From the NCBI RefSeq assembly GCF_028553745.1, contig NZ_CP067133.1, forward strand, positions 1-12,374: a stretch of DNA of 12,374 bases, in the 5' to 3' direction. How positions within the stretch are numbered: position 1 is the stretch's first letter; each line of letters starts with the position of its first letter. A model generated the notes under the pieces. It saw nothing but the letters and a program-made list of their open reading frames with translations, ran no database searches and was not told the DNA's origin. Source of the stretch: Paracoccus seriniphilus (GTDB taxonomy: Bacteria; Pseudomonadota; Alphaproteobacteria; Rhodobacterales; Rhodobacteraceae). Positions 2,151 to 9,152 of this stretch are shown here, in pieces. The position numbers and the translations under genes were made by a program.

Positions 2151-3245
2151 TCATTGATCGAATAGCGTTCGCGGGCCAATGCTGGCTTCATACTCGGAGT
2201 ACTGTCCAAGTATGGCCCGGACGGCGGCGGGCGGTAGGGGGTCTGCCAACTTGTCACCGTTGAACTCCAGAACGCGAAGAACGCGCCGGTTCTTGGGGCG
2301 TCCATCGATGTTCTGAAAAGCCCATTGCACTTTCAGATTGTCCAGCACTTCCACATGAAGGGCCTTGTGTGTCACCTTGTGCCAGAATTCGGCGTCTTCG
2401 ATCACGAAGTAACAATCCCGTCTGATCTGGTCCTTGCCCTTCCACTGCCGGGTCTTCTGGTCTTCTTTGTCCCAGTTCGGAGAGGTGACATAGATGCTTT
2501 CAATGGACACAGCCAATTCGGGCGGCTCTTTGCCCTTGGGCTTCCGAGCTGGCTTTTGGGCGCGCTTGGGGAATGAGTTGCGCGGAATCGGGAAGTCGTC
2601 GTCCGGTGTGAAACCTACCCGCTTCACGTCGCGGTCTTCGATACATGCGGCGTAGAAGTCTGCGCGCGCGTCGACGGCATCTGGCAGTGCTCCAACCTCC
2701 ATTCCTACCTTCTGGATTTCGTCCGGACTTTTCTCAAGGACGCCTCGTGCCATCGCCACCACAATTTGCGCCGCCTCTTTGCAGGCTTCATCGGCACTAA
2801 TCGGCAAGGCCTCCGAGGGACCTTCGGTCACGTCAAGACCGGTTTCGTCATTTTCCGACGTTTCTGTTTCGACGTGGAAGGCGTCAATCCGGGCGCGGTG
2901 ATCTTCCCCAAAGGACTGCGCCCATTCTGCCGGTGTCCGCCCAGTAAGTCCTTCAACGTAGGCCGAACCGACATCGGTATTCAGGAAACCAAAGACCGCC
3001 GTTGTCCCGCCTGAAATCCATATAGCCAGCTTGGAAAGGAACGTTCCTTTCGCCGGTGGCAGGACGATCAGTTCATATTCAAGGCTGCCGTTGAAAAAGG
3101 TTTCGTCCAGAGCGTCAATCACCTTCCGGGCGCTTTCCGCCGTCTTGATGAAGGTGTCCAGTTTCAGGAAATGATCGCTGACGTCGAAGTGAATGTAGAG
3201 GCGGTCAAAGCGCCCGTCAAATTCCCAGACCAAGGTGTCTGTCAT
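2151..3245 (-). CDS. Unrecognised 364-residue protein with one hydrophobic segment
   Basis: I do not recognise this protein. The N-terminal third (1-110) ends in the motif LPPAKGTFLSKL (62-73), followed by a hydrophobic stretch at about 72-89 (LAIWISGGTTAVFGFLNT) and then AYVEGLTGRTPAEWAQ. Residues 120-150 are acidic and probably a linker. Residues 151-205 look helical. A Lys/Pro-rich hinge (KRAQKPARKPKGKEPP, about 227-242) precedes a C-terminal beta-rich domain of about 115 residues (SIESIYVTSPNWDKEDQ, CYFVIEDAEFW, LKVQWAFQNIDGRPKNRRVLRVLEF). The gene stands alone, opposite in strand to its neighbours. AAGG precedes the ATG at a loose spacing and a -10-like TATAAG lies just upstream. The shape (sensor-like N-terminus, hydrophobic segment, separate C-terminal domain) resembles accessory cargo of defence islands, but no function can be assigned. 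Confidence 0.75.
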   Translation of the reverse strand: MTDTLVWEFDGRFDRLYIHFDVSDHFLKLDTFIKTAESARKVIDALDETFFNGSLEYELIVLPPAKGTFLSKLAIWISGGTTAVFGFLNTDVGSAYVEGLTGRTPAEWAQSFGEDHRARIDAFHVETETSENDETGLDVTEGPSEALPISADEACKEAAQIVVAMARGVLEKSPDEIQKVGMEVGALPDAVDARADFYAACIEDRDVKRVGFTPDDDFPIPRNSFPKRAQKPARKPKGKEPPELAVSIESIYVTSPNWDKEDQKTRQWKGKDQIRRDCYFVIEDAEFWHKVTHKALHVEVLDNLKVQWAFQNIDGRPKNRRVLRVLEFNGDKLADPLPPAAVRAILGQYSEYEASIGPRTLFDQ

Positions 3246-3476
3246 GCAGCTAATACCTTATACCGTAACAGAAAAATCGTAAGCCGCGAAAATCGCGTCG
3301 CGCAAGAAAAACTTGACGTGTGTCAGTCATTCGAATGGCCGCACTCGGCCGAGCATAATCAGCATCCATGCCCGTGCAGTGACATCGGCTCCAGGTTGCA
3401 CGGCCCCGCAGTCGTCTCAGATATCGAAGAGGTCTGCCCGGGCACGGGCGGAAAGTAGCGAGCGAGGGGGCATATG
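3246..3476. other. Intergenic region with several short palindromes, no gene seen
   Basis: No credible reading frame is seen between the 364-residue gene and the resolvase control region. Short symmetric elements are present: CATTCGAATG (3328-3337), CTCGGCCGAG (3344-3353), CCGTGCA (3372-3378) paired with TGCACGG (3397-3403), TGCCCGGGCA (3435-3444), and GCCCGTGC (3370-3377) paired with GCACGGGC (3442-3449). They may be further recombination or regulatory sites, or chance symmetry in GC-rich DNA. Confidence 0.4.
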
Positions 3477-3610
3477 TGTCCTCAAAACGGTGTTGAAGTT
3501 TTCTGGACACGCCTTAATATGAAGACTATTAAATAGACAGATATCGACACCCAGAAGAACGATCACCCATCTCTCGGGAAGACGTCCTCAAACCGTTCGT
3601 TTTGGAGACA
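3477..3610 (+). promoter_or_regulatory. Candidate res site and promoter of the serine resolvase
   Basis: Two imperfect palindromes share a half-site of the form TGTCYnCAAAAC. The first (3477-3509) has arms TGTCCTCAAAAC and GTTTTCTGGACA around nine bases. The second (3583-3610) starts CGTCCTCAAAC and ends GTTTTGGAGACA, 28 bases in all, the usual length of a crossover subsite. Between them lies TTAATA (3514-3519) mirrored by TATTAA (3527-3532). A promoter TTGAAG (3493-3498), 16 bases, TAATAT (3515-3520) would be covered by the first palindrome, as expected if the resolvase represses itself. The resolvase ribosome site TGGAG (3603-3607) lies inside the second palindrome. Function is inferred from symmetry, spacing and position. 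Confidence 0.6.
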
Positions 3611-3612
3611 CT

Positions 3613-4182
3613 ATGACACGCACGGGCGACATCCTCGGATACGCAAGGGTCTCCACCGCCGATCAAGACCTGTCCGGCCAGAAAGACCGGTTGCTGCAGC
3701 ACGGCGCTATTCGCGTGTTCGAGGACGTGATCTCCGGCAAGACGTTCAACCGACCCGGTCTGGCGGCCTTGCTTGATCAGGCCAGACCCAACGATACTCT
3801 CGCTGTCATCCGCCTCGATCGCTTGGGCCGCTCGCTCAAAGAGCTTCTGGAAATTGTCGATGACCTCAAGGCCCGAGAGATCAATCTGATCAGCCTTGAG
3901 GAGAGGATCGACACGACATCCGCCGCTGGCGAACTCGTATTCCACGTCTTCGGGGCTATTGCGCATTTCGAGCGGCGCCTGATCTCTGAGCGCACCAAAG
4001 ACGGCTTGATCAACGCGCGGAAACATGGCCGCACCCCCGGGCGGCCATCATTGCAGCCCGAGACAATCTCAGCCCTCCAAGATCTCGTCAGCACCGGAAA
4101 ATCCGTCGCCCAGGCCGCAAAACATCTCGGCATAGGCAGATCAACAGCTTACAAGGTGATCAGAAACAGCAACCCACCATGA
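3613..4182 (+). CDS. Serine recombinase, Tn3-type resolvase/invertase
   Basis: This 189-residue, full-length small serine recombinase cuts DNA with a serine nucleophile and exchanges strands at paired res sites. The catalytic YARVSTADQ places Arg12 and the nucleophile Ser14. IRLDRLGRS (66-74) carries the conserved arginine pair, and AHFERRLISERTKDGL (117-132) is the typical E-helix. A basic GRTPGRPS hinge (139-146) leads to a C-terminal helix-turn-helix (about 161-185, SVAQAAKHLGIGRSTAYKV) that would read the subsites just upstream. No transposase, terminal repeats or invertible segment accompany it, so the likely job is resolving plasmid dimers made by homologous recombination. An invertase role is possible but no second inverted site was seen. 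Confidence 0.93.
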   Translation: MTRTGDILGYARVSTADQDLSGQKDRLLQHGAIRVFEDVISGKTFNRPGLAALLDQARPNDTLAVIRLDRLGRSLKELLEIVDDLKAREINLISLEERIDTTSAAGELVFHVFGAIAHFERRLISERTKDGLINARKHGRTPGRPSLQPETISALQDLVSTGKSVAQAAKHLGIGRSTAYKVIRNSNPP

Positions 4183-4299
4183 GTGTTCGCTGAAGGTTCC
4201 GCCTTAGAGTAATCCTACGCACAAACCTTCCGATAGGGCCTCGTCGGGAAATTCTCAGGAATGGCGAGGATCTCGAGAACTTGAACGAAGCAACTTGTC

Positions 4300-4662
4300 T
4301 CAGTCGTCGTAGTGCGGGCCGTCAACAGTGATGTTAGACAGATCAAGTCCATCTTGCATCAGGACCAGAGAGAAACGCTTGAAGAACGAAAAGAATTTCG
4401 ACCCAGTCATCTCAATATCAATGGCTCGGACAACTTTTTCAGGATCGTCATACCTGCCTTTCTGCAAATAGACTAAGACGCCGGGTTCGTATTCTTTTCC
4501 GTGATTGCCGTTGAAAGAAATGCGGTAGCCGATCACTCTTTCATCATCCGTGGCAAGGCCCGCGCCAACCAGATAGTCGGCCATGCTCTCGGTATCAGAC
4601 CTATCTGCGGCGACAGTCCCCTTAAAATCGTTGTACTGAACAGAAGCGACGAAATCGGACAT
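4300..4662 (-). CDS. Small conserved-looking protein of unknown function (120 residues)
   Basis: I cannot name this protein. It begins with a good ribosome site (GGGAG, six bases before the ATG) and has a protein-like composition. The N-terminal part is MSDFVASVQYNDFKGTVAAD; YRISFNGNHGKEYEPGVLVYL (about 46-66) looks like beta strands; the C-terminal part carries VVRAIDIEMTGSKFFSFFKRFS (about 77-98), probably helical, and ends in an acidic HYDD tail. There is no signal peptide or membrane segment. It lies downstream of the broken nuclease gene on the same strand and may be the last gene of the restriction island, or an independent gene using the promoter region at 4663-4775. A stand-alone stress or immunity protein is possible, but nothing in the sequence decides this. 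Confidence 0.7.
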   Translation of the reverse strand: MSDFVASVQYNDFKGTVAADRSDTESMADYLVGAGLATDDERVIGYRISFNGNHGKEYEPGVLVYLQKGRYDDPEKVVRAIDIEMTGSKFFSFFKRFSLVLMQDGLDLSNITVDGPHYDD

Positions 4663-4775: not shown

Positions 4776-5477
4776 TCAAAGCGAGCGATCCCTTTGGGCG
4801 ACCTGCTCCCGGATCTGATCTTCCAGCAGTCGCTCACCATCTCCCTTCGCTTCGCAGGTGATCAGCGCGAAGGTTTCCATGCCAACACGCAAAGCACGGC
4901 GGCTGTTGTGGCTGACTAGGAACGTGCCGTCGATCTCCGGTTGTGTTTTCATCGACATCTGAAGATGGGTGGGTGACATCGCGAAGACGGCCCCAAAGAG
5001 GCGAGAACAGAGAAAGCTGGCTTTCGATCAGCCGCAGCGATACTGCCACCTGCATAAGCCAGCTTTCTTCTTTCCTGCCCAATTCTCTCGCGACGGCTGG
5101 AACAGTGGCGAATTGCAGAAAATATCTCGGAGTGCTCGCTGTCGGCAGGTAATAATCGGGATACGGTTCGGTCTACCCCGGCGCATAGGGGACAAACTGG
5201 AACACCCGCTTGTCTTCATACCTCTGCCGTCCGAAGAATCCTGCTTTCGCAGCGATGTCCGGCCAATTGTTGTTGGCAGTGCTCTTACGGATGATGTCCT
5301 TCAGGAAGTTCGCAGGATTCCCTGTTCCAAGCTTCGCCTTGCAGGCATGAATGGCGTTTACACATCATCGGAATACACGGTTCCATCCGGATATTTTCCG
5401 GCCTGAAACTCCCGGAACAGATACTCGATGACGGGTGTTTTCTTGGATAATCTAGGCGGCAAAGTGTAGCGTCTCAA
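4776..5477 (-). pseudogene. Broken second restriction endonuclease (PD-(D/E)xK type)
   Basis: Three frames read together give one continuous protein. It starts at a TTG directly after the stop of the upstream nuclease gene (RRYTLPPRLSKKTPVIEYLF), then YPDGTVYSDDV. A one-base loss near 5360 shifts the frame to VNAIHACKAKLGTGNPANFL and WPDIAAKAGFFGRQRYEDKR. A TAG at 5173-5175 interrupts FVPYAPG|TEPYPDYYLP, probably a former CAG (Gln). The frame then runs through RELGRKEESWLMQVAVSLRL until a one-base gain in the GGGTGGGTG stretch (4967-4975). The last frame carries QPEIDGTFLV and FALITCEAKGDGERLLEDQI, a clear PD-(D/E)xK core with EID and EAK as metal-binding and catalytic residues. The protein stops soon after this core, so the C-terminus is also lost. 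Position directly behind the methyltransferase and first nuclease shows it was part of the same system. Family membership is inferred from the motif. Confidence 0.8.
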
Positions 5478-6266
5478 TTAAGTTCGGTAGGCACGGATAG
5501 CATTCGGATCGAGGTCGGACGCTGGCACCAGCTTGTAGTGCCGTTCTTCGACAACCCTGATCTCATCGTCCTGAAGCGTCAACTCAAACAGCGCAACGAC
5601 CTGGTCAGACATGAACTGCGCTGAAATGGCGCGACACTGCATATCGGGAAACCGCTGCTCAACGAAGCGGATGTCTTGCGTGGTCTGAACGATGCCGATC
5701 TGATCTTTACCGCCCTTCGCCTGTACCGGGATGACGTAATGACAGCCGCGCTTGTCGAGACCGACATACAGTTCGTCGATCTCAATCTGCCCGATGCCCC
5801 GCACGGTCGTGCGCAGATGGTTCTGCAAGCTATAGGTGGTCAGCCCTAGGAAAGTGTCGATAAGCCGGTTATAGCGAACGATCGCCAGCAGAGCCTGTTC
5901 GTCGTCCAGGGCATAGGCTCGGATCAGCTCAGGCGTGGCATCAGGGATAGAGATCGTCACCAGATCGTCACGCGGGACGATGCGGTTCGCCTTCACCAAG
6001 CGAAAGCGGTACTGCGCCCTTCCGGCCAGCTCGATAACCCATTCACGCCCCTCGTCCTGCGTCGCGACGATTGGCTCCGGAAGCGCCACACGAAAGCGAA
6101 AGGAATACAGCACATCGCCCAGGTTCTTCGGCAACCGGATATTGAGGGCGGCCGCAGCGTCCTCGATGTCCTCGCGGGTAAACTCCAGCGCCGCAGCACC
6201 TTCTTCGTACCGATCAAAGAAAATCTTCTCGATCAGGGCACCGTAGCGGTTTGGCTCCTTAGCCAT
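5478..6266 (-). CDS. Restriction endonuclease, PD-(D/E)xK-like with a QxK motif
   Basis: This 262-residue protein is probably the cleaving partner of the adjacent cytosine methyltransferase. The core IEIDELYVGLDKRGCHYVIP (161-180) followed by VQAKGGKDQIGIVQ (181-194) gives Asp164 and Gln182-x-Lys184. That is a PD-(D/E)xK nuclease active site with Gln in place of Glu, as in Mrr-like nucleases. N-terminal residues 1-110 (start MAKEPNRYGALIEKIFFDRY) have no motif I recognise and may hold recognition elements. The chosen ATG at 6266 overlaps the methyltransferase stop (ATGGCTAA), implying coupled translation and matched dosage; an upstream frame reaching 6335 lies entirely within the methyltransferase gene. 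The downstream neighbour, separated by no bases, is a ruined second nuclease. Restriction activity and target sequence are unproven. Confidence 0.82.
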   Translation of the reverse strand: MAKEPNRYGALIEKIFFDRYEEGAAALEFTREDIEDAAAALNIRLPKNLGDVLYSFRFRVALPEPIVATQDEGREWVIELAGRAQYRFRLVKANRIVPRDDLVTISIPDATPELIRAYALDDEQALLAIVRYNRLIDTFLGLTTYSLQNHLRTTVRGIGQIEIDELYVGLDKRGCHYVIPVQAKGGKDQIGIVQTTQDIRFVEQRFPDMQCRAISAQFMSDQVVALFELTLQDDEIRVVEERHYKLVPASDLDPNAIRAYRT

Positions 6267-7584
6267 TGGCAGCCTGCTGCAGTTCGGCTTCGATGTCTTC
6301 CTGACGGCGCTTGCGCGCACCGCTCTTGCGGTCACGCCGTCCAGACGGAGCCGGAACCCCGAAATATGCAGCTGCGTCGGTCATGTCGCCGGTTAGCAAG
6401 GCGGTGTCTCCAAGGGCAATCGGTGCAGATGGGCGGGTGGGTTTGACGCCCAGAGCCGCAATAATCTGCTCGGCGATCGCCCTCGCCAGAGGCGGCGGCA
6501 CGGCATTGCCGATTTGACGTGCGCCATGCCACTTCGTAACGTGAAAGCGGAACCAGTCCGGGAAACCGTGCAGCCGCGCCATCTCGCGCACCGTGATGCA
6601 GCGCTGGTAGCGGTAGTGGATTGGGCGGGGGCTTGTAAACGCCCCGCGTGCGCCGTCTGTACCGGCGCGCAGCGTGTTGGAAACACCACCGGGAGCTAGC
6701 TTGAAGAAGCGGCTGATCGGCTCGACCGTTCCAGGCTCAGTAGCCGCGAATCGGCGGCGGGAAATATCCGTGTGTTCAGTACGAGCGCTAGACGTCAGCA
6801 CAGCCGGGTCCCAATCGCGTACATGACCATAGTGCCAAGAGTCGTTGCCTAGGCAACGCATTTCGGCAGCGTAAGCCGAAGGCTCGCCGAAGCGTGAAGT
6901 GGGAACCGCATCGGATGCGTGGAGAGTTCGGTAGCTGTCGGCGTCGGGAAGGTCGCCGATCGCCTCTTCACAACTAGGCCCGAACGGCAGCTCGGGAAAC
7001 TTCACCGGCTTGCCGGAAATGTTCGTCTGCGGTGCCGGATAGTCGGGAAGCGGATGCCCCTTCTTCGCCCCCATGAGGATGAAGCGCTCACGCGACTGCG
7101 GCACGCCGTAATGCGCGGCATTAAGCACCTTCCAAGGCAGGCGCACGTCGTAACCGGCCGTATTGAAGGCGGTCTCCAGCTCCTGCAGGAACTTGCGGTG
7201 CTTCCCAACCGTCAGCCCCTTCACGTTCTCGAAGACGAACATCGTGGCATCCAGCTCGCGTACGATGCGTACAAAATCCAGCACAAGACGGTTACGTGGA
7301 TCGTCCAGGACTCGGTGCCCGATCAGGGAAAATCCCTGGCAGGGCGCACCGCCAAAGACACAGTCTACCTTAGCATCACCCAGACCAGCGGCGCGGCGGA
7401 TGTCATCACCGTTCAGGTGTTCGACAGAGTGGGGCAGCACAGCAGTATTTGGGAAATTAAACTCGTGGACAGCGCAGTGCACTGGGTCGATCTCAACGGC
7501 CGCCCGCACATCGAAGCCGGCCTGTTCAAAGCCCAGGCTGAGGCCGCCCGCACCGGCAAAAAGATCAATACCCACCGGCCGCAT
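6259..7584 (-). CDS. DNA C5-cytosine methyltransferase of a restriction-modification system
   Basis: This 441-residue enzyme transfers a methyl group from S-adenosylmethionine to C5 of cytosine in a specific site. Motif I is DLFAGAGGLSLGFEQAG (7-23), motif IV GGAPCQGFS has the catalytic Cys82, motif VI FENV is at 118-121, motif VIII QSRERFILMG is at 163-172, and motif X RQIGNAVPPPLA is at about 356-367. The stretch between VIII and IX (about 180-330) is the target recognition domain. After motif X there is an unusual tail of about 65 residues ending in a basic segment (SGRRDRKSGARKRRQEDIE). The start at 7584 is fixed by AGGAG (7592-7596) seven bases upstream; longer starts at 7623 or 7632 would overlap vsr and lack a ribosome site. 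Gene order is vsr, 20-base gap, methyltransferase, overlap, nuclease. Confidence 0.95.
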   Translation of the reverse strand: MRPVGIDLFAGAGGLSLGFEQAGFDVRAAVEIDPVHCAVHEFNFPNTAVLPHSVEHLNGDDIRRAAGLGDAKVDCVFGGAPCQGFSLIGHRVLDDPRNRLVLDFVRIVRELDATMFVFENVKGLTVGKHRKFLQELETAFNTAGYDVRLPWKVLNAAHYGVPQSRERFILMGAKKGHPLPDYPAPQTNISGKPVKFPELPFGPSCEEAIGDLPDADSYRTLHASDAVPTSRFGEPSAYAAEMRCLGNDSWHYGHVRDWDPAVLTSSARTEHTDISRRRFAATEPGTVEPISRFFKLAPGGVSNTLRAGTDGARGAFTSPRPIHYRYQRCITVREMARLHGFPDWFRFHVTKWHGARQIGNAVPPPLARAIAEQIIAALGVKPTRPSAPIALGDTALLTGDMTDAAAYFGVPAPSGRRDRKSGARKRRQEDIEAELQQAANG

Positions 7585-7604
7585 TTGCCGTCTCCTGTAG
7601 TTTC

Positions 7605-8063
7605 TTAGTTCTCGATTCGACATTCTAACCAAGAGGTTTCTATATGTCGATCGTTTTCCTTATTCACCCACAAATCCCGGAGAACTAAGAGCAAACGTGC
7701 CGGGTCTCTAGTCTCACATTCCCAGACTGTAAGCACCTGCCATCCGGCATTCACCAAATCACGTACGTTCTTGGCATCGCGCTCCACGTTCTGCGCAAGC
7801 TTCGGCCCCCAGTAATCGAGTTTCGATTTGGGAGCCTTCCCCTTACTGCATCCGTGGGCATGCCAAAAGCAGCCATGTACTAAGATCACCTTCCGCCGCT
7901 TCCCGAAGACGATATCCGGACGGCCCGGCAGGCCTTTACGGTGGAGGCGGTATCGATAGCCAGCACCGTGCAGGAGACGGCGCACCACCAGCTCAGAGGT
8001 TGTGCCCTTTTGCTTAACCGACTGGATAATGCGGCGGCGCTGCTGAGGACTTCGCGTGTCCAT
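7605..8063 (-). CDS. vsr: Very short patch repair endonuclease
   Basis: This 152-residue Vsr nicks beside T:G mismatches that arise when 5-methylcytosine deaminates, starting repair back to C:G. Diagnostic features are all present: TSELVVRRLLHGAGYRYRLH (22-41), GLPGRPDIVF with the catalytic Asp50, the zinc/active-site segment VHGCFWHAHGC (62-72), and LDYWGPKLAQNVERD (82-96). The start at 8063 (MDTRSPQQRRR) gives the usual length. The longer frame to 8135 adds 24 residues atypical of the family, though the ribosome site before 8063 is weak. It precedes the cytosine methyltransferase by 20 bases in one operon, a common pairing because the methyltransferase creates the mutational hotspot that Vsr repairs. 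Its specificity should match the methyltransferase site. Confidence 0.95.
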   Translation of the reverse strand: MDTRSPQQRRRIIQSVKQKGTTSELVVRRLLHGAGYRYRLHRKGLPGRPDIVFGKRRKVILVHGCFWHAHGCSKGKAPKSKLDYWGPKLAQNVERDAKNVRDLVNAGWQVLTVWECETRDPARLLLVLRDLWVNKENDRHIETSWLECRIEN

Positions 8064-8140
8064 GTTCTGAGTTTCTTTAGCTGTGTGGCATGAGTGCCGG
8101 GCAATCGAGGAAGAGACGCTATGTTGCGATGACAAAGCGT

Positions 8141-8159
8141 TGTCCGACTAGGCAGTCAA
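8141..8159 (-). promoter_or_regulatory. Candidate vsr-methyltransferase promoter with a GACT/AGTC box
   Basis: GACT (8146-8149), four bases, AGTC (8154-8157) form a palindrome resembling the GACTnnnAGTC C-boxes bound by controller proteins of restriction systems, though with four rather than three central bases. On the minus strand it overlaps a -35-like TTGACT (8154-8159). A -10 element at the right distance is poor (TTTGTC). The site lies between the XRE regulator gene and vsr, where a controller box would be expected. Confidence 0.4.
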
Positions 8160-8176
8160 AAATCTGAGGCGTTCTA

Positions 8177-8206
8177 GGGGCTGTCTGCCCCCGCGCCTGA
8201 CGGCGC
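8177..8206 (-). terminator. Tandem hairpins between the XRE gene and vsr
   Basis: Two small perfect hairpins follow each other: GGGGC/GCCCC (8177-8181 with 8187-8191, five-base loop) and GCGCC/GGCGC (8193-8197 with 8202-8206, four-base loop). On the minus strand they are followed, about 20 bases on, by ATTTTTG. They may end or attenuate transcription leaving the regulator gene, leaving vsr to its own promoter. The lack of an adjacent T-run makes strong intrinsic termination doubtful. Confidence 0.4.
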
Positions 8207-8236
8207 TCCCCCGAGGATACTTTTGGGAAGATGAAG

Positions 8237-8494
8237 TCAGATACGATGATCTGGCTCAGTCGCATCCACGACCTGCTCCAGGATCACAGACGGCACAACA
8301 CCGATCGCGCGGGCAAGGACCACCAGCTCAACGACATCAATCCGGCGCTCGCCACTCTCGATCCTGGCAACCAGAGACTGATGGCACTTAAGGCGCTCGG
8401 CCATTCCAGCCTGCGTCAGGCCTGCCGCCTTCCGGGCGTCGATCAGCGCTTCACATAAAGCCACATGACCTGTGCTTCTGATCGTCTTCGTCAT
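8237..8494 (-). CDS. XRE-family helix-turn-helix regulator, possible controller of the RM operon
   Basis: This 85-residue protein consists almost wholly of an XRE/Cro-type helix-turn-helix domain (about 12-70): ALIDARKAAGLTQAGMAERL, then KCHQSLVARIESGERRIDVV and ELVVLARAIGVVP. The start at 8494 follows AGAGGTGG at a good distance; the only longer start is a TTG at 8521 without support. Its size matches controller (C) proteins, which delay nuclease expression until methylation is established after plasmid entry. It heads the restriction island on the same strand and faces a divergent gene across palindromes at 8526-8561, which are probably its operator. It could equally be an unrelated regulator of the divergent pair; the sequence does not settle this. 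Confidence 0.8.
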   Translation of the reverse strand: MTKTIRSTGHVALCEALIDARKAAGLTQAGMAERLKCHQSLVARIESGERRIDVVELVVLARAIGVVPSVILEQVVDATEPDHRI

Positions 8495-8525
8495 GTCGCT
8501 GCGCCACCTCTTTGGGCGCAAGCGG

Positions 8526-8561
8526 TAATCTGCTTTTCAGATTATCTAAAAAATGGATAAT
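8526..8561. promoter_or_regulatory. Operator-like palindrome pair between divergent genes
   Basis: TAATCTG (8526-8532) is mirrored by CAGATTA (8538-8544) around CTTTT, and ATTATC (8541-8546) is mirrored by GATAAT (8556-8561) around nine bases. The two inverted repeats overlap and reuse the same ATTATC half-site. GATAAT also fits as a -10 for the plus-strand gene, with TTTTCA (8534-8539) as -35 at 16 bases. A protein bound here would control both directions. The adjacent XRE gene is the obvious candidate; that link is inference. Confidence 0.6.
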
Positions 8562-8597
8562 TCAGCATATTCCAAGCCAGTTCCGAGGAGACACCCC

Positions 8598-9152
8598 ATG
8601 CGCCAGCCCCTTCAGCATTCGATGATCCTGACCAAGCTTACCAGGACAGGACAGGCCCTGATGCAACTGGACAGCCGTGGCTACGTCGACATCGAAACCG
8701 CCCGGCATCTGGTCGCCGCAGGCCTTGCAGCGCCGGAGCGCATTCGTGTCGAAATCCGGCACCTCCCTTCCAGAGAGTTCGAGGGCATCGGCCTAACGTC
8801 TGAGGGCAGCGCTGCCGTGAAAAATCTGGTCCGGCAGATAGCCCCTATATCGGGATTATCGGACAGCCGTTCTTTCACGACCGGCCCCGAGCTTTCCGAC
8901 AGCGAGCGGGTCGTGACCTGTGGCTATTTGGGCTGGCTTGGCGAAGATGCTCTATCGCAACTTGATCGCCGGTTCGCATGGGGCTGGTGCCCTGAGATGC
9001 CCAGGGAGCCAACCCAGGTCTTCGAGGTTCCCCTTCCCATGCTCAAGACATCGCGCCGGAAGATAGCCCGCAGACTTACCGCCAAGATCGGGCCTGTCGA
9101 TCCCGACTTCGACCAGAAGGGTTTCATGGACGCGCTATGGGGCGACGGTTGA
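8598..9152 (+). CDS. Unrecognised 184-residue protein
   Basis: I do not recognise a family here. The start at 8598 is set by GAGGAG six bases before the ATG; the longer frame from 8553 would translate the operator region. The N-terminal part (about 10-80) reads like an alpha/beta segment: MILTKLTRTGQALMQLDSRG, YVDIETARHLVAAGLAAPER, EFEGIGLTSEGSAAVKNLV. The middle carries VVTCGYLGWLGEDALSQLDR and AWGWCP. The C-terminal third is basic (LKTSRRKIARRLTAKIG) and ends in an acidic, aromatic tail. There is no signal peptide or membrane span. The next gene starts 15 bases after the stop, so the two are likely co-transcribed. The gene is divergent from the XRE regulator and may be under its control. 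Confidence 0.7.
   Translation: MRQPLQHSMILTKLTRTGQALMQLDSRGYVDIETARHLVAAGLAAPERIRVEIRHLPSREFEGIGLTSEGSAAVKNLVRQIAPISGLSDSRSFTTGPELSDSERVVTCGYLGWLGEDALSQLDRRFAWGWCPEMPREPTQVFEVPLPMLKTSRRKIARRLTAKIGPVDPDFDQKGFMDALWGDG

Follow-up and report, generated by a model that had tools for sequence, protein, structure and literature searches.

The contig NZ_CP067133.1 of Paracoccus seriniphilus, which in its whole length of 12,374 bases is the stretch of DNA analysed here (the window), looks like a small plasmid in a genome of 4.26 Mb assembled in 5 contigs. Its minus strand carries a restriction-modification (R-M) block that consists of a Vsr endonuclease, a C5 cytosine DNA methyltransferase (MTase), an intact nuclease, N1, and the remains of another nuclease, N2 (Table 1). 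The MTase and N1 genes are adjacent and both are open, as expected of a Type II R-M system. A relative of the window's N1 (P0121, 97%) belongs to the PADLOC family PDLC03404, REase_II (2e-135), and matches the window over 5481-6266 with no stops. In combining a C5 MTase (PF00145), Vsr (PF03852) and, in the same operon, a nuclease from a listed Type II family, the block is like other Type II R-M systems that contain a Vsr gene. It is unlike them in having an additional, dead nuclease, the family of which lies outside Pfam, NCBIfam, PADLOC and PHROGs.

Table 1. Positions of the R-M genes and N2 fragments in the window, and of three methylases at other loci
Feature	Sequence	Positions	Strand	Remarks
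Vsr endonuclease	window	7605..8135	-	listed open reading frame (ORF); PF03852 7e-27; TIGR00632 8e-44
C5 cytosine DNA methyltransferase	window	6259..7632	-	PF00145 8e-67; TIGR00675; PDLC03326 3e-177
N1, intact 'QxK' nuclease, 262 aa	window	5478..6266	-	ATG 6266; ORF list starts at GTG 6335
N2 pseudogene (second nuclease)	window	4797..5462	-	TTG start at 5462; truncated at 4797
N2 piece A (N-terminus)	window	5361..5462	-	ends at one-base loss
N2 piece B, different frame	window	4970..5363	-	in-frame TAG 5173-5175; ends at four-base gain
N2 piece C	window	4797..4970	-	holds EID...EAK motif; ~88 C-terminal residues gone
PF01555 methylase beside remote N2	L031	2443-3876		
PF01555 methylase beside remote N2	L033	5486-6961		
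PF01555 methylase beside remote N1	L067	2316-3734		

The N2 region is a pseudogene of a nuclease of about 309 residues: it is spread over three frames, contains one stop and lacks its C-terminus. When the intact relative P0001 (309 aa) was compared with the window by tblastn, three frames were matched, at 5462-5319 (E 2e-16, the genuine part stopping at 5361), at 5364-4864 (E 2e-82, the genuine part stopping near 4970) and at 4970-4797 (E 4e-34, 98% identical). This match is far beyond chance. A protein search with the joined frames yielded 190 homologues at E<=0.001, of which the best is 95% identical over 95% of the query. Intact relatives span the joins and lie beside a C5 MTase, Vsr and N1, as a reading of the letters made earlier without database searches (the sequence-only reading) had expected them to. 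Its view that a second restriction nuclease had been inactivated is borne out by these matches together with the intact syntenic copy at locus L011 of Paracoccus sp. C2R09, where the operon that it took to be ancestral (Vsr, C5 MTase and two nucleases) is intact in the same order. A further intact syntenic copy of N2, at L095, has 0 differences from that of L011 in 1061 shared alignment columns. No second copy of N2 was found elsewhere in the window's own genome.

Alignment of the DNA with L011 and L095 places the lesions precisely. The one-base loss near 5360 and the TAG codon at 5173-5175 are as the sequence-only reading had them, but the gain near 4970, which it took for a single base, is of four bases. 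The truncation was also seen correctly and the extent, 4776-5477, was not: the TTG at 5462 aligns with the TTG start of the L011 ORF at 3608-4537, and similarity ends at 4797/4798 in both protein and DNA, with 4776-4796 outside the gene. The DNA is syntenic with L011 over 4798-9069, at 91%, and no further. As synteny stops exactly where N2 is truncated, the 3' end of the gene, about 88 residues, was lost by rearrangement.

N2 is homologous to its family across its whole remaining length and the EID...EAK motif is conserved. Residues E175, D177, E203 and K205 are invariant in 44 family rows; these acidic and (D/E)xK residues are presumably a PD-(D/E)XK motif. The best explanation is that N2 was a restriction nuclease whose active site resembled that of PD-(D/E)XK enzymes. 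At the limits used, it has no match in the four collections named above, Pfam searches with 12 N2-family rows gave chance-level matches only (best 0.021), and sequence searches of the PDB with N1 and with the N2 profile gave nothing at E<=1. N1 and N2 align with each other in hhalign (84%, E 7e-6), so that N1 and N2 are probably distant homologues, whereas N1 had been described at the outset as a nuclease of a different type.

Across 160 codons, taken from pieces A and B plus two codons of piece C, the remnant shows, relative to L011, a synonymous divergence (dS) of 0.289 and a nonsynonymous divergence (dN) of 0.014, giving a dN/dS of 0.049. The corresponding ratios are 0.047 for the MTase, 0.075 for N1 and 0.129 for Vsr. 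Since the ratio of the remnant is like those of the MTase and N1, the loss of N2 is recent. Inspection by eye found three missense changes and one nonsense change that are special to the window with respect to both P0001 and L011. One of the missense changes, G83E, affects a residue that is conserved as G in 41 of 44 family rows; the other two fall on more variable residues (S in 35/44 and R in 25/44). If these four changes over about 490 nonsynonymous sites are set against half of dS, and neutral drift after inactivation is assumed, the inactivation of N2 falls, as a rough estimate, within approximately the most recent 6% of the period since divergence from L011.

The low dN/dS of the remnant is that of a living gene, and this would also be expected if the N2 gene were truly intact and had been spoiled by an assembly or sequencing error. 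Such an error is nevertheless hard to invoke, because the four lesions differ in kind, one being a nonsense codon and another a rearrangement at which synteny also ends, and three missense changes are special to the window. We consider it extremely improbable.

It has also been proposed that the system is now decaying. The whole restriction side would then be on its way out with N2 the first to go, and only the MTase would persist. N2 is indeed dead here, and decay of this kind does happen: on the viral contig L093 (2356-4464) a related MTase and N1 lie in several frames, another R-M block that looks broken. However, N1 in the window is open and full-length, the dN/dS values of N1, the MTase and Vsr given above are low, and an MTase with N1 and no N2 is an ordinary arrangement, as described below. 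Decay of the system is thus unsupported and, in our view, unlikely, with the proviso that dN/dS averages over a long time and that a very recent relaxation of the three open genes could escape it.

The company kept by the two nucleases tells more about their roles. Twenty-one of the 24 N2 loci in genome contigs carry the same C5 MTase family and Vsr, and the MTases of these 21 loci are 63-96% identical to that of the window. N1 is present in 8 of them and is not found inside the fetched flank (up to 7 kb, shorter at contig ends) in 13; several of the loci with N2 only are near-copies, the MTases of L025, L026 and L049 being identical. Among the three remaining loci, L030 is truncated at a contig end, and L031 and L033 adjoin a PF01555 methylase. 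On the viral contig L035, an MTase and N2 occur with no Vsr. As 13 of the 21 loci with MTase, Vsr and N2 have no N1 nearby, N2 can serve alone. In the same 13 loci, a modification-dependent N2 would cut the mark of its own MTase, which would be lethal. With N2 the only nuclease found there beside the MTase and Vsr, the idea that it is such an enzyme or some other accessory, and not a second cognate nuclease, appears very improbable.

N1 likewise occurs without N2. In the family sample of 394 genomes, N1 is present in 16 and N2 in 5, and the sole overlap is the window's own genome, in which N2 is dead. (The two surveys were taken as covering the same 394 genomes, since the genome labels agree, and in that of N2 no more than 5 candidates were scored in each genome.) The 15 other N1 genomes are thus all absent from the list of 5 with N2, which supports the earlier suggestion that N2 is dispensable. 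N1 was found in 13 of 385 genomes of the class sample and in 5 of 398 of the phylum sample. The N1 loci from the genome search have flanks of about 1.5 kb, so that an N2 lying before Vsr could be missed in them; for the family sample, such cases are covered by the survey of N2. Relatives of N1 are found on 65 plasmid records, 39 from Klebsiella and 17 from Salmonella, and the annotation of plasmid pB1019 shows an MTase and N1, with no Vsr and no N2. An MTase with N1 and without N2 is a common arrangement. On plasmids N2 is rare: in the plasmid collection, the middle piece of N2 matches 1 record, that of S. meliloti psymA. Names such as 'Modification methylase HaeIII' and 'AplI' on Klebsiella records look automatic and were not used.

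Both nucleases are found with the MTase in 10 fetched loci, namely the 8 genome loci, S. meliloti L005 and the viral L091. In all 10, N1 and N2 match their profiles nearly end to end. The gene order is Vsr-MTase-N1-N2 in 4 of them and N2-Vsr-MTase-N1 in 6.

The C5 MTases found with N1, with N2 and with both form one family. A quick tree was built of 71 MTases, 43 from loci with N1, 17 with N2, 10 with both and that of the window, loci with two or incomplete MTase reads being left out. The four arrangement labels require 9 changes on this tree; they are interleaved, yet each is clustered. The rows nearest to the window are L011, with both nucleases, and L056, with N1 only. The target-recognition region of C5 MTases lies between motifs VIII and IX. 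The median identity of this half between N1-only and N2-only loci is 0.656, and within the arrangements it is 0.669 (N1-only) and 0.655 (N2-only), after the exclusion of 11 remote MTases, all from N1-only loci. The target-recognition half is therefore as alike across arrangements as within them.

The nucleases have diverged along with the MTase. After the removal of MTase near-duplicates, which reduced 27 loci to 21 for N2 and 42 to 40 for N1-only, the correlation between MTase and N2 distances is r 0.91 across the 21 loci (0 of 2000 permutations as high), and that between MTase and N1 distances is r 0.74 across the 40. Since its distances follow those of the MTase, N2 is a long-standing partner of the latter. 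N1 and N2 distances correlate as well (r 0.88 over 9 loci), and the two genes are adjacent in one operon in L011, L017, L018 and L005, as would be the case if N1 and N2 were two subunits of one heterodimeric Type IIT enzyme and the loss of N2 had killed restriction. However, MTase distances alone account for the N1-N2 correlation, and each nuclease occurs without the other, N2 in the 13 loci with no N1 nearby and N1 beside the MTase without N2. Subunits of a Type IIT enzyme should always be together, and N1 and N2 are not; we find this explanation very unlikely. According to an excerpt of PMC4081073, BbvCI and Bpu10I are heterodimeric Type IIT enzymes. Like the window, the systems described there have two different nuclease genes, and unlike them, N1 and N2 are each also found alone with an MTase.

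The methylase beside the remote N2 of L031 is 60% identical to that of L033 and 57% identical to that of L067, where the neighbouring nuclease matches PDLC03404 (6e-97). These three loci show an apparent swap of the kind of methyltransferase around the same nucleases. N1 and N2 thus share both of their methyltransferase partner families, which would be explained most simply if the two nucleases cut the same sequence.

The homology, synteny, lesions, low dN/dS, co-occurrence and co-divergence observed here are, we think, quite probably explained as follows: N2 is a recent pseudogene of a nuclease that was redundant to N1 on one MTase-protected site, and the rest of the block remains a Type II system. 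We infer from the shared partners that the two nucleases have the same target and that one could replace the other, and we take N1, like intact N2, to be active. For a long time the N2 lineage would have stood beside a single C5-MTase/Vsr family, either with N1 or as the sole nuclease. Judging from the roles of the named families, the MTase would mark the site, Vsr would repair T:G mismatches arising from deaminated 5-methylcytosine, and N1 would cut unmarked DNA, as intact N2 would have done. N1 thus probably cuts the site that the MTase protects, and the two nucleases most likely shared that site, in its unmethylated form, under the guard of the common MTase. The loss of N2 would have come late, through two frameshifts, a nonsense codon and a rearrangement at the 3' end. 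With the MTase, Vsr and N1 still open, restriction should continue via N1 as in an ordinary Type II system.

A broader and more tentative proposal, which we hold to be possible but doubtful, is that N1 and N2 are anciently diverged, interchangeable nucleases with one target, paired with two unrelated kinds of methyltransferase, C5 and PF01555. They would have come to share an operon on at least two occasions, in two orders, and both kept where both are present, perhaps since phage countermeasures seldom stop both; the window would just have fallen back to one.

The pseudogene itself is ordinary in kind. More unusual are the N2 family, a candidate restriction nuclease family outside the collections searched of which intact members exist, and the way in which two diverged nucleases replace each other beside a single MTase family. 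A described case of two nucleases sharing one MTase was not found in a narrow search of the open-access literature, and an equally narrow search for restriction endonuclease pseudogenes found nothing. The loci form a natural series, in which the same MTase family stands with N1, with N2, with both, and with N1 and a freshly dead N2, and which lets one ask why some systems keep two nucleases per methyltransferase. If our explanation of the N2 pseudogene is true, the loss of one nuclease need not end a defence system.

A lead to the target site comes from the XorII system of Xanthomonas oryzae, which has a C5 MTase with a vsr homologue, going by a title cited in PMC4853030; M.XorII is called CGATCG-specific in an excerpt of PMC4390886. 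The window has the same pair of genes, and both the kinship and the CGATCG site are a lead by description only. The Xanthomonas hortorum locus L034 has an MTase, Vsr and N2; a protein search with its MTase gave no record named XorII among the matches listed. CGATCG occurs 6 times in the window against 7.05 expected, a count that is uninformative on the target site.

The starts of two genes of the block may differ from the listed ORFs: the initial residues of the MTase ORF may be unused, and the real start of Vsr is probably further inside its ORF. Around the block, the window carries RepA (PF10134), a resolvase (PF00239), a Mob_Pre relaxase (PF01076) and a ParA-type ATPase. On the minus strand upstream of Vsr, a helix-turn-helix gene at 8237-8521 is also present on plasmids of Paracoccus and Thioclava (94% identical DNA), in matches that stop short of the R-M block; it is therefore probably part of the plasmid backbone and not a controller of the R-M system. 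A 364-aa ORF at 2151-3245 (minus strand) matches nothing in Pfam, NCBIfam, PADLOC, PHROGs or, by tblastn, in the plasmid collection. A 120-aa ORF at 4300-4662 (minus strand), which adjoins the N2 break, has no family match in the same four collections and shares about 48% identity with hypothetical proteins encoded by 5 sphingomonad plasmids. The resolvase and its flank (3420-4245) are matched by Tn3-transposon regions on plasmids of Sulfitobacter and Yoonia, and a stretch of about 40 bases at 4202-4244 is found again on two Roseobacter-group plasmids. A remnant of transposition may thus lie near the break that cut N2.
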